Virus record (IMG/VR): IMGVR_UViG_3300037189_004056
Coordinates: 1-22,918 of that record
Length of the DNA: 22,918 nucleotides
DNA from: a virus
Reading direction: 5' to 3' (one strand)
Part shown: in pieces, positions 19,739 through 22,918 of the stretch
Layout: each line of letters starts with the position of its first letter
Numbering within the stretch: the first letter of the stretch is position 1
The notes under the pieces: model-generated
What the model saw: the letters and a program-made list of their open reading frames with translations, nothing else
Told to the model about the DNA's origin: nothing
Database searches by the model: none
Position numbers and translations under genes: made by a program

Positions 19739-20410
19739 ATGGAAATCATAAAGGCGTCAGTATCGGATCTCAAGGAGTATCACAACAACCCGCGTAAAGG
19801 CAACGTGGATCTTATTGCTGAGTCATTAAGCAAGTACGGTCAATACAAGCCGATTACCGTTAGCAAACAAACAGGCGAGATCCTTGCAGGCAATCACACT
19901 TATCGCGCAGCCAAGAAACTAGGTTGGTCTGAAATTGATGTTGTTTACGTAGATGTAGATAACGTAACAGCAGCCAAGATTGTCGCAATAGATAACAGAG
20001 CGTCAGATATGGGCGAGTACGACAAGCAAGTGTTGGCGGATCTCTTGGACAGCATGAACAACCTTGACGGATCTGGTTACACTTTTGACGAGTATGACGA
20101 CTTGAAGGCTGAAATACAAGAAGCGTCTATGCCCGAACTTGAACATAAAACATACTTTTCATCTCTTGAAGTAGGCGAAACAGGTCAATCTGGTACGCGG
20201 TTTATCCCCTCACTTGGAGATTACGCTGAGCGATACATCAACAAGGCTACCCGTATGTTGATGTGCGATTATCATAACGATACGTATGTATGGATCGTAG
20301 AAGCGCTGATTGAATATCGGACAGCCAACGACATATCTAGCAACGCTGAAGCAATTTTGCGCCTTGTAGAGAACGCAGTAGGGAGAAAGTCTGAGCATGA
20401 AACTATCTGA
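19739..20410 (+). CDS. ParB/Srx-fold protein
   Basis: 223 residues. Residues 1-75 are a ParB N-terminal-like domain: NNPRKGNVDLIAESLSKYG, KPITV, and the loop GNHTYRAAKKLG (G51-R56). Phages often carry such stand-alone domains; relatives are nucleases, NTPases or DNA-binding proteins. Residues 135-215 form a separate C-terminal domain (FIPSLGDYAERYINKATRML, WIVEALIEYRTAND) unlike plasmid partition proteins. It overlaps the oxygenase gene by 14 bases, so a role in the modification system, such as target recognition, is plausible but inferred. Confidence 0.7.
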   Translation: MEIIKASVSDLKEYHNNPRKGNVDLIAESLSKYGQYKPITVSKQTGEILAGNHTYRAAKKLGWSEIDVVYVDVDNVTAAKIVAIDNRASDMGEYDKQVLADLLDSMNNLDGSGYTFDEYDDLKAEIQEASMPELEHKTYFSSLEVGETGQSGTRFIPSLGDYAERYINKATRMLMCDYHNDTYVWIVEALIEYRTANDISSNAEAILRLVENAVGRKSEHETI

Positions 20411-21272
20411 ATTACCCGTACACAAAATCAAGCGTGTTATGTCTGAAGAGGATGCAACAGCGCTAGTTGGTACAACAGTTCCCGATTATGAGCCAAATTG
20501 CACTGACGCTGGGATCTGGGTTGATGAAGATACAGATGAAATCGTGTTTGTTTACTTCCCAATGGAGCAAGAAGTTGATCTGTTGCGCGCTTCTGTATTG
20601 AATATAAATTACGGCGAGACGATCCGCCAATCAACTGGGCTAAAAAACAAATCACGCACTTTTGGTATGGCTCCACGCAAAGTATTTCAGCGCAGAGAAA
20701 GTTGTCGCCCAACATCATTAGCCTACGAGCATCCATATGAACACGCTGTCTTGATTGCTTTTGCGGAGAAGTTTGCCTTGATGTACAAAGAGTTTGCGCC
20801 TGATCTGTATGAAGCAGACAAAAAGAACCTTGCTGACGCAGGGCTACAAGACGAGTGGCGCATGACCGATGACGCGCTATGGACTTCTGGCGTAGTAAAC
20901 AAGGCTTCAACCCTGCCTTATCATCGTGACGGGTTCAATTTTGCTACTTGGTCAGCCATGCCTGTTATCCGCAGGGAGATGAAAGGCGGATACTTGACGC
21001 TACCTGAGTACAATTTCACTTGCTCATGTCGTGACGGCTGGGTAACTTTTTTTGCGGGATACAAGTATGTTCACGGCGTAACACCTATGTCTCCAAAGAC
21101 CAAAGACGCATACCGATACTCAATTGTTTATTACGCGCTACGCGGCTTGAAAGACTGCTTCACCTATGCGGTTGAGACAGCCAAAGCCAGAGACAGCCGC
21201 ACAATGCGTGAGGATCGTATGGCGCGGGCGCTTAAAGGCGATGAAGCACATCAGGTGCTAGGCAAGGGCTAA
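20397..21272 (+). CDS. JBP/TET-like 2-oxoglutarate/Fe(II) DNA base oxygenase
   Basis: 291 residues. Iron ligands are H176 and D178 in LPYHRDGFN and H226 in YVHGVTPM; R240 in YRYSIVYYAL is the expected 2-oxoglutarate anchor. Preceding stretches SRTFGMAPRK and TSGVVNKAST, and GGYLTLPEY between the motifs, are as I recall for phage TET/JBP proteins. These enzymes hydroxylate the 5-methyl of thymine or 5-methylcytosine in DNA. It is the first committed enzyme of the operon; the following genes would process the hydroxymethyl base. GGGAG is upstream of the ATG. Alternative: a protein-acting oxygenase, less likely in this context. Confidence 0.75.
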   Translation: MKLSELPVHKIKRVMSEEDATALVGTTVPDYEPNCTDAGIWVDEDTDEIVFVYFPMEQEVDLLRASVLNINYGETIRQSTGLKNKSRTFGMAPRKVFQRRESCRPTSLAYEHPYEHAVLIAFAEKFALMYKEFAPDLYEADKKNLADAGLQDEWRMTDDALWTSGVVNKASTLPYHRDGFNFATWSAMPVIRREMKGGYLTLPEYNFTCSCRDGWVTFFAGYKYVHGVTPMSPKTKDAYRYSIVYYALRGLKDCFTYAVETAKARDSRTMREDRMARALKGDEAHQVLGKG

Positions 21273-22159
21273 TGTCCTTACTAGACGATTACGCAACAAT
21301 GCACAGGCTTATAGTGCAGACCGAAAGCATGGATACTGAAGCAACAGTATTGGCTGAAGTCTCCAACCTGCTGCACTTAGACAAAAATCAAGCGGCGTGG
21401 ATGTGTTTTGTGTATCTTGCTTACTACGACATGGGATCTTTCTTGCGTTGTTTTGAGTTCACGCGCAATCCAGAGATCCCTGCCGACAAGTACCTGCGCT
21501 TATCTTGCGACACAGAAAGACGCGTTCACAGAGTACCCGCCAAAATGGAGAGACACTTTGGAGATGTTGTGTCAATAGCAGATAGCAACGGCGGCTTATA
21601 CAACTGGTTGTCTAGTTACGTTGAAAAATCCCCACAGCAGTCTTGGGTCAATATGATAAATCCCGTTGAAACCATATTCGGTAATGGGCGTTGGGCTTCA
21701 TATCGCACGATTGAAATGATTGGACAAGTCTGCGGGCTACCTGTTGAAGCGCCAGATATGGGTCACGCCAACAGCAGTGGTCCAAGGCGCGGGCTTGAAT
21801 TCTTATACTCAGATCTACCGCAGGGTAACAAGCCAGCCGACATAGCCTACTTGGATCAGGTATCTCTGGATCTTAACCGCAAGTTGGCTGAACGCGGCAT
21901 TAGTGCTAAATTACAAGATACAGAGACAGGCTTGTGCGGGTTCAAATCAATGGTGAAAGGCGACTACTATGTTGGAGAGGATCTTGACTCAATGCTTGAA
22001 GAGATCCTTAAACAACCAAGCGGGCTAACTCAAACCATATTTGAAGCGCGCAAAAATATATTCCCCCATGAGTATCTAGGGGAACTGAACGGTTGGACAG
22101 GCATGGATAGGGCTAGAAAAAAGATATACAAAGAGACAGGACAGATTGTTACTAGGTAG
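21272..22159 (+). CDS. Alpha-glutamyl/putrescinyl thymine pyrophosphorylase-like (amino acid:DNA transferase-like) protein
   Basis: 295 residues, mainly helical. Two blocks match what I recall of this phage family, which has a DNA-glycosylase-like helical fold: GNGRWASYRTIEMIGQVCGL (137-156) with a following DMGHANSSGPRRGL, and ETGLCGFKSMVKGDYYVGED (218-237). Members are thought to bind phosphorylated hydroxymethyl bases in DNA and replace the phosphate with an amino acid or polyamine, or to form the helical partner of the hydroxymethyluracil DNA kinase. Its position between oxygenase and kinase supports the assignment. The donor molecule cannot be told from sequence. Confidence 0.65.
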   Translation: MSLLDDYATMHRLIVQTESMDTEATVLAEVSNLLHLDKNQAAWMCFVYLAYYDMGSFLRCFEFTRNPEIPADKYLRLSCDTERRVHRVPAKMERHFGDVVSIADSNGGLYNWLSSYVEKSPQQSWVNMINPVETIFGNGRWASYRTIEMIGQVCGLPVEAPDMGHANSSGPRRGLEFLYSDLPQGNKPADIAYLDQVSLDLNRKLAERGISAKLQDTETGLCGFKSMVKGDYYVGEDLDSMLEEILKQPSGLTQTIFEARKNIFPHEYLGELNGWTGMDRARKKIYKETGQIVTR

Positions 22160-22169
22160 GAGAAGGCAA

Positions 22170-22703
22170 ATGAAGGTTATTTACTTGATTGGCGCACCAG
22201 GCGCAGGCAAGACAACACTTACTGAGGCTTTCACAAGAGATTGGGTGGATACAGCGCAACATGAAAACCCTATTAAGTTCAGAAGTCATCATACGCCGCA
22301 CGGAGACGCGTTATCGCTCGGTTGGCTCAGACCAGCCTTCGGTGGAACAGACACGCTCGGTAATACGGCGATATTACAAATTGAACCATGGCTCCCAAAT
22401 ATCGCCAAAGACTATTCAATCATCTACGGAGAAGGCGACAGACTAGCCAACTCACGTTTCTTTGAACTAGCAAAGAGCGTAGGAGACTTTCATCTGTTTT
22501 ACTTGAACACAGATCCAATGATTAGCGCTGAACGGCGCGCAAAAAGATCCGCTGAAACAGGTAAAACACAAAACCCAACTTGGGTTAAAGGCAGAGAGAC
22601 AAAACACAAAAACCTTGCTTTTAACTACAACGCATACGAGATCCCTGACGGACTTACACCAGAGCAAGGCGCAAATCTCATGCGTACTGTAATCTTTTCT
22701 TGA
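22170..22703 (+). CDS. P-loop kinase resembling 5-hydroxymethyluracil DNA kinase
   Basis: 177 residues. Walker A is GAPGAGKTT (G8-T16) at the N-terminus. Further motifs are FGGTDTLGN (57-65), YGEGDRLANSRFF (86-98, Walker B-like with a base-binding look), an arginine-rich lid AERRAKRSAETGK (120-132) and WVKGRETKHKNLA. GGTD plus EGDRL is as I recall for phage kinases that phosphorylate hydroxymethyl bases within DNA. GGAGAAGG supports ATG 22170; an upstream in-frame start is unlikely. A nucleotide-pool kinase is the main alternative. Confidence 0.7.
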   Translation: MKVIYLIGAPGAGKTTLTEAFTRDWVDTAQHENPIKFRSHHTPHGDALSLGWLRPAFGGTDTLGNTAILQIEPWLPNIAKDYSIIYGEGDRLANSRFFELAKSVGDFHLFYLNTDPMISAERRAKRSAETGKTQNPTWVKGRETKHKNLAFNYNAYEIPDGLTPEQGANLMRTVIFS

Positions 22704-22715
22704 TTGCGGGGAAAT

Positions 22716-22918
22716 ATGATGAGTAAAAGAGCGCCGAAGCCTGAAGTCATAGACAAAGAGCGACAGGTACTAGAACTACGCCGTACAGGTGCAGGTTGGG
22801 AAGCAATCGCAGATGTGGTTGGCTTCAGTAACGCTAGTGGGGCGTACAAGGCGTACCAGCGAGCCATAGCGCGTGTATTGGTTCAACCCGCTGAAGAGTT
22901 AAGAACGCAAGAACTTGA
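22716..22918 (+). CDS. HTH protein, possibly small terminase subunit (partial, 3' cut)
   Basis: 67 codons to the right edge, with no stop. Starts MMSKRAPKPEVIDKERQVLE; residues 17-52 form a helix-turn-helix (VLELRRTGAGWEAIADVVGF, then SGAYKAYQRAIARVL). Small DNA-binding proteins of this type often precede the large terminase gene in actinophages. GGGGAAAT is upstream. A regulator of the modification operon is an alternative. Confidence 0.55.
   Translation, partial: MMSKRAPKPEVIDKERQVLELRRTGAGWEAIADVVGFSNASGAYKAYQRAIARVLVQPAEELRTQEL

Follow-up and report, generated by a model that had tools for sequence, protein, structure and literature searches.

A viral TET/JBP dioxygenase encoded with an amino acid:DNA transferase and a P-loop kinase as a probable thymine-in-DNA hydroxylase

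The window analysed here, the 22,918 bases of IMG/VR virus record IMGVR_UViG_3300037189_004056, carries consecutive genes for a ParB-like protein, a TET/JBP dioxygenase (hereafter TET), an amino acid:DNA transferase (ADDT) and a P-loop kinase (Table 1). Direct oxidation of thymine in DNA by the TET is the best explanation of our data, and we regard it as probable; thymine is the likely substrate because the product suggested by the neighbouring ADDT and kinase is 5-hydroxymethyluracil in DNA. Since the window is a fragment of a virus genome, the tests for absent genes were extended to relatives.

The TET open reading frame (291 residues, ATG start, plus strand) scores 42.4 bits for the Pfam family Tet_JBP (PF12851), whose cut-off is 34.9. 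Of 15 TET-bearing isolates, 13 fall below this cut-off, with E-values of 2.7e-05 or better. The predicted structural model is confident (mean pLDDT 89.5, pTM 0.84), and its best VIA-align matches in the PDB are TET2 (Z 19.9, root-mean-square deviation 5.2, 264 aligned residues), CMD1 (19.7), NgTET1 (18.5) and CcTet (16.2). The first 16 entries all belong to these four enzymes, with Z from 19.9 to 15.9, and ALKBH3, FTO and AlkB-type enzymes trail with Z of 15.2 or less. In a 60-row alignment, the iron-binding triad HxD...H and the 2-oxoglutarate arginine are all in place. The initial annotation had recognized an oxygenase in this frame from the letters alone, and the family match, the intact iron and 2-oxoglutarate residues and the TET fold of the predicted model bear this out.

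PHROG 6059 and many RefSeq phage records call the TET family 'queuine tRNA-ribosyltransferase', and one record gives 'DpdA-like tRNA-guanine transglycosylase'. We rejected the queuine name for the window protein, as it is contradicted by both the fold and the Pfam match; the queuine/DpdA-like label appears to be an error that has spread between records.

The ADDT and the kinase, two neighbours that the initial annotation left unmentioned, say the most about function. The ADDT matches PF18724 with 79.1 bits (cut-off 26.2) over profile positions 84–231 of 232, and the kinase matches PF18751 with 96.8 bits (cut-off 27). In the pathway that we infer, from the TET substrate and its 5-hydroxymethyluracil product to the order of the steps, the kind of amino acid attached and the advantage gained, the TET would hydroxylate the methyl group of thymine in phage DNA to give 5-hydroxymethyluracil, the P-loop kinase would phosphorylate the hydroxyl of this base, and the ADDT would exchange the phosphate for an amino acid, leaving a fraction of the thymines amino-acid-modified. 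The likely benefit would be resistance to host restriction.

In phages M6 and ViI, 5-hydroxymethyldeoxyuridine (5hmdU) in DNA receives a phosphate from a 5hmdU DNA kinase before transferases modify it further (PMC6449724). M6 gp51 and the window ADDT both belong to PF18724 and PHROG 6364 (phrog_6364), and M6 gp54 and the window kinase both belong to phrog_800, whereas in Pfam gp54 falls into PF18748 ('5-hmdU DNA kinase') and the window kinase into PF18751. M6 and ViI also differ from the window in having a thymidylate-synthase homologue and no TET.

The case for a remote homology of the kinases rests on profile comparison (in hhalign, the window kinase and the M6-type kinases align over 126 columns, best at the P-loop, with probability 90.6% and E 1.3e-06), because BLASTP of the window kinase against gp54 aligns essentially the P-loop alone and was therefore discarded as evidence of homology. 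Searching PDB sequences with the profile of the kinase gave mostly P-loop-only matches and was also set aside. Members of this kinase family are labelled 'terminase small subunit' (PHROG 800) and, in many actinophage records, 'adenylate kinase', although M6 gp54 (L214:8686-9249) matches PF18748.

Neither a thymidylate synthase nor a C5-methyltransferase was found among the 19 window proteins scanned against Pfam and the 19 scanned against PHROGs, nine proteins being common to both scans. Local profiles, built from four phage synthases and three phage C5-methyltransferases (three more were dropped, having no open reading frame that passed the motif filter), recovered neither gene among 289 window open reading frames, with best E-values of 1.3 and 0.38, respectively. 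These scans agree with the initial annotation, which saw neither gene in the window and suggested a search beyond it.

For that search, 80 IMG/VR loci were kept from 99 relatives; the PF00303 (thymidylate synthase) and PF00145 (C5-methyltransferase) searches covered 68 records, with 12 loci outside them. PF00303 matched 0/68 of the IMG/VR records retrieved by means of the window's TET (0/18 and 0/50; ThyX, PF02511, lay outside the profile search) and none of 15 isolates (14 TET isolates and Boehler), nor any of the 13 TET isolates of the N/L type defined by the pocket residues described below. In the same search Vi01, M6 and SPO1, the three control phages with 5hmdU, all gave a match. A dUMP hydroxymethylase elsewhere was set aside as a candidate, PF00303 having matched only Vi01, M6, SPO1 and Cr30 over sets of 18, 18, 50 and 22 records.

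PF00145 matched six of the 68 IMG/VR records (3/18 and 3/50: G008, G009, G010, G032, G052 and G060) and none of the 15 isolates, including 0/13 actinophage and cyanophage TET isolates; among a further 22 records it was also found in the cyanophage-type records G081 and G086. A linked C5-methyltransferase was set aside; the matches in G009 and G010 are partial and in short frames, and those in G032 and G060 lie at contig ends. For the clade of the window TET, the expectation of the initial annotation that a C5-methyltransferase usually accompanies a phage TET fails. At L043:6699-7891 and L046:6216-7901, some 2 kb upstream of cassettes of TET, ADDT and kinase, short frames that are separate from one another hold fragments of a C5-methyltransferase.

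The closest relative, G001 (39,210 bases), has a TET 95% identical to that of the window and a DNA identity of ~88% in the main blocks, over most of the window (80–89% in the longest). Exact 123-base direct terminal repeats in G001, G004 and G012 and, for G001, the fact that both ends fall within one gene make complete genomes with circular permutation the best reading of these three records. Neither PF00303 nor PF00145 was found in any of the three, so that the two genes are missing from complete relatives as well as from the window. Among ten G001 open reading frames scanned from outside the window counterpart (small ones excluded), six match head, packaging, connector or tail families, one matches an unnamed family and three have no match; a DNA polymerase was not recognized among the G001 proteins scanned.

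The synthase homologue and the TET appear to replace each other beside the two kinase types. A synthase homologue lies downstream within 3 kb at 11 of 13 M6-type kinase loci, the other two (L225 and L228) ending within ~570 bases of the kinase, and TET is present at 0/13; PF12851 was likewise absent from 9/9 tested M6-type kinase records and from Vi01, M6 and SPO1. TET and a PF18751 kinase occur together in 22 records, 10 from isolates (W01-W04, W06, W08-W11, W14) and 12 from IMG/VR (G001-G007, G009-G013), in which PF00303 was matched in 0/22 and PF00145 was absent from 20/22 (matches in G009 and G010). The simplest reading is that TET does on DNA the job that the synthase homologue does in the nucleotide pool.

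The base-reading pocket provides a further line of evidence. In solved 5-methylcytosine (5mC) enzymes, cytosine N4 is read by Asn1387 of TET2, Asp234 of NgTet1 and Asp350 of CMD1 (PMC7854593), and N3/O2 is contacted by His1904 of TET2, His297 of NgTet1, Arg418 of CMD1 and Arg393 of CcTet (PMC7854593, PMC11040006). Counted on the alignment, the His/Arg contact lies eight residues past the 2-oxoglutarate arginine, and HMMER places Asn181 and Leu248 of the window TET opposite the two base-reading positions of TET2 and NgTet1. Among 77 phage TETs, the pair at 181/248 is Asn/Leu in 68, Asn/Ile in two and Asp/Arg in seven, the last (D/R type) forming one supported clade in the TET tree. That is, the cytosine-reading His or Arg of all four solved 5mC enzymes is replaced by Leu or Ile in 70/77. 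The window TET, with Leu248, is without the cytosine-reading His/Arg, which may suit a JBP-type thymidine hydroxylase. On chemical grounds, Leu at 248 should fit thymine better than a donor His or Arg would, because such a donor matches cytosine N3, an acceptor, and thymine N3 bears a hydrogen.

Several observations weigh against thymine as the substrate. The window kinase has no PF18748 match in Pfam at E-values up to 0.1. The Mycobacterium phage Boehler (kinase gene at L093 16-564) has a PF18751 kinase beside the terminase and neither TET, ADDT, PF00303 nor PF00145, and by tblastn the kinase is found in 362 Mycobacterium phage records and TET in 55; a PF18751 kinase can thus be present where nothing that would supply 5-hydroxymethyluracil is visible. 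The Boehler kinase and the different Pfam family make the substrate of the window kinase uncertain. In the pocket, TET2 has Asn at the position three residues past the iron-binding Asp and yet acts on 5mC, so that Asn181 alone does not discriminate and was rejected as a thymine signature. The D/R-type TETs, whose pocket is CMD1-like, are also without a C5-methyltransferase (0/9 IMG/VR records, as well as P12024L and Cr30), and therefore absence of the gene alone is no proof of a thymine substrate. P12024L, Cr30 and their relatives were rejected as a 5mC control since the same records are without PF00145; the methyltransferase beside the P12024L TET matches the N6/N4-type family PF01555. G009 and G010 have C5-methyltransferase fragments ~2 kb upstream of TET in addition to kinase and ADDT, 5mC could come from the host or from a methyltransferase outside PF00145, and a search of open-licence PMC papers found no thymine oxidation assay for a phage TET.

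One alternative is that the TET oxidizes 5mC, made by the host or by an undetected phage methyltransferase, to 5-hydroxymethylcytosine, which would then be the substrate of the kinase and the ADDT. All four solved TET-fold relatives are 5mC enzymes, and profile search found a C5-methyltransferase in 6/68 records, of which G009 and G010 also have the kinase and ADDT. Other phages combine TET with a C5-methyltransferase and glycosyltransferases to modify cytosine, as described in PMC12730594, which cites Burke 2021; they resemble the window in that a phage TET feeds a base-decorating enzyme and differ from it in the C5-methyltransferase and glycosyltransferases, none of which was found in the window. 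We nevertheless consider oxidation of 5mC unlikely, since neither the closest complete relative nor 20 of the 22 records with TET and kinase have PF00145, the cytosine-contacting His/Arg is Leu or Ile in 70 of the 77 phage TETs, and the kinase/transferase chemistry is known on 5hmdU (PMC6449724).

Less probable still is that in this lineage the cassette has ceased to yield a hypermodified base, for example because it stops at 5-hydroxymethyluracil or because the system has decayed. Mycobacterium phages such as Boehler have kept PF18751 kinases beside the terminase although TET and ADDT are missing, which indicates that parts can outlive the pathway; however, each of the four cassette genes has an open, intact frame in the window, the TET catalytic residues are invariant in 60/60 sequences and the nearest records, L002-L005, retain ParB-TET-ADDT-kinase. 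About equally unlikely is that 5-hydroxymethyluracil is made in the pool by a dUMP hydroxymethylase outside the window, with TET serving another role, because although the window is merely a fragment and the M6/ViI route is known and has the downstream ADDT in common, PF00303 was matched in 0/68 records and 0/13 N/L-type isolates with 3/3 controls positive (ThyX, PF02511, outside the profile search), and G001, with its exact end repeats, is without it.

Overall, the proposal of direct thymine oxidation, at which the initial annotation had arrived by noting the absence of both genes, is strengthened by the 0/68 result for PF00303, the rarity of C5-methyltransferases (6/68) and the presence of ADDT and kinase; the substrate stays short of proof, and the C5-methyltransferase fragments of G009 and G010 speak on the other side.

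Phage TET/JBP proteins were reportedly linked to thymine modification, as a prediction, by Iyer et al. in 2013. The cassette of the window is already known as a kind: a 2025 paper, citing Lee 2018 and 2022, describes it in the Rhodococcus phage Tonitrus as a system of five genes for thymidine hypermodification (PMC11955845). Tonitrus (PP978825) shares with the window the order of its ParB-like, TET-like, aGPT-Pplase2/ADDT and kinase genes, with protein identities to the window of 48.2% for TET and 39.3% for ADDT, and its complete genome is likewise without PF00303 or PF00145. It differs in small extra genes between ParB, TET and ADDT and in one more gene past the kinase; the window has overlapping ParB, TET and ADDT frames and a spacing of 10 bases before the kinase. 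In addition, the TET homologue of Mycobacterium phage Prince is annotated as 'thymidine hydroxylase'. Direct thymine oxidation is thus not unprecedented as a proposal, and the remark of the initial annotation that it would be unusual in a phage finds no support.

The JBP1/JBP2 thymidine hydroxylases of base J synthesis convert thymine to 5-hydroxymethyluracil in DNA (PMC11065319, PMC6449724). They belong to the same superfamily and carry out the reaction proposed here; the window differs by adding a kinase and ADDT and by having no glycosyltransferase neighbour. Pfam and PHROG scans found no partner glycosyltransferase in the window, and a glycosyltransferase homologue occurs at 13 of 80 IMG/VR loci. 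The likeness to TET2, NgTet1, CMD1 and CcTet lies in the fold, the HxD...H motif and the arginine layout, and the difference in the His/Arg cytosine contact, which is Leu248 here. New in this work are the searches of complete relatives, the exchange of synthase for TET as seen against control phages, the pocket signature and the relatives with glycosyltransferases instead of the kinase.

The genes that accompany TET vary. We tallied 80 loci with one query per gene; as several loci are truncated, the absence counts are upper limits. ADDT, an FAD-like oxidoreductase and kinase were found at 23 loci, ADDT and kinase at 8, Hang3 (ADDT-like) and kinase at 5, kinase alone (with these queries) at 5, a glycosyltransferase homologue at 13, ADDT and oxidoreductase without kinase at 4, Hang3 alone at 1 and ParB only at 21. 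These contents are scattered across the TET tree, L043 and L046 (ADDT and kinase) grouping with L056 (kinase) and L049-L051 (other genes). We conclude that TET is the constant step and that the decorating enzymes vary.

A wider reading, whose chances we put at about even, is that the clade of TETs with Asn181 and Leu or Ile at 248 (70/77) consists of dedicated thymine-in-DNA hydroxylases, which replace the pool hydroxymethylase of M6/ViI and feed interchangeable decorating enzymes: kinase and ADDT, kinase and other ADDT-like transferases, or glycosyltransferases. If thymine is oxidized directly, phages would reach 5-hydroxymethyluracil in two ways, by making the nucleotide before replication or by oxidizing thymine in finished DNA. 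The second route would need no specialised nucleotide pool and would suit small phages such as G001. Simple enzymes from bacterial viruses would then be available to write 5-hydroxymethyluracil into ordinary DNA, the biochemistry of base J would gain a tractable model, and the scheme predicts residues that separate thymine-oxidizing from 5mC-oxidizing TETs.

The gene order is ParB-like, TET, ADDT, kinase, with frames overlapping or abutting. The ParB-like and TET frames share 14 bases, the TET stop and the ADDT ATG meet in TAATG with one base in common, and the kinase ATG, which comes 10 bases after ADDT, is preceded by a GGAGAAGG stretch. A ParB homologue is present at 76 of the 80 IMG/VR loci. 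In relatives, the helix-turn-helix gene adjoins the gene for the terminase large subunit, which lies downstream, and this placement suggests a small-terminase-like position. A WhiB protein found in the Pfam scan of the window suggests an actinobacterial host for the virus.

Table 1. Positions of the cassette genes, the flanking gene and the TET residues discussed, numbered along the window.
Feature	Position	Strand	Evidence and remarks
ParB-like protein	19739..20410	+	PF02195 ParB_N, E 8.2e-07; phrog_723, E 1.2e-46; first in the gene run
TET/JBP 2-oxoglutarate/Fe(II) dioxygenase, proposed thymine-in-DNA hydroxylase	20397..21272	+	PF12851, E 5.6e-11; TET fold; 60-row alignment
Iron-binding HxD, H176-R-D178	20922..20930	+	H176 and D178 invariant in 60/60; opposite 'HRD' of TET2
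Asn181, base-reading position, iron Asp +3	20937..20939	+	Asn in 70/77 and Asp in 7/77 phage TETs
Second iron-binding histidine, H226	21072..21074	+	Invariant in 60/60
Arg240, 2-oxoglutarate-binding by position	21114..21116	+	Invariant in 60/60; opposite TET2 and NgTet1 arginines
Leu248, cytosine-reading position	21138..21140	+	Leu/Ile in 70/77, Arg in 7/77; opposite TET2/NgTet1 His (HMMER)
ADDT (amino acid:DNA transferase, aGPT-Pplase-type)	21272..22159	+	PF18724, E 5.5e-22
P-loop kinase, proposed 5-hydroxymethyluracil DNA kinase	22170..22703	+	PF18751 Ploopntkinase3, E 1.4e-27; phrog_800, E 3.4e-18
Helix-turn-helix protein, cut by the window end	22704..22918	+	phrog_645, E 4.3e-13

At loci L060, L070, L072-L081 and L099, TET is followed by a gene resembling a TET-associated glycosyltransferase, and PF00303 and PF00145 were absent in the whole records searched. 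PF20691, the profile of TET-associated glycosyltransferases, is matched below its cut-off by the glycosyltransferase of Arthrobacter phage Lilmac1015 and by the L074 gene. These glycosyltransferase-type loci are candidates for a source of glycosylated hydroxymethyluracil in phage DNA.

Other genes occupy the kinase/ADDT slot elsewhere. At L042:10887-12262, and similarly in L032-L041 and L047, two genes of ~311 and 148 residues fill it after TET. The slot genes of L042, L045 and L049 had no Pfam or PHROG match; our guess for the L045 gene is a glycosyltransferase, and the same reading of the L042 genes was dropped as unsupported.

A gene of 355 residues at L025:6218-7282 (phrog_3650) stands between an ADDT-like gene and the kinase; from its motifs it looks like a pyridoxal phosphate enzyme, recalling the 'threonine dehydratase' beside the M6 ADDT. 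Finally, at L131:11733-12287, a P-loop gene resembles, by eye, the cassette kinase; it lies downstream of a D/R-type TET, of an open reading frame that starts like a glycosyltransferase and of another like the inositol-1-phosphate synthase annotated near the Cr30 TET, these too judged by eye.

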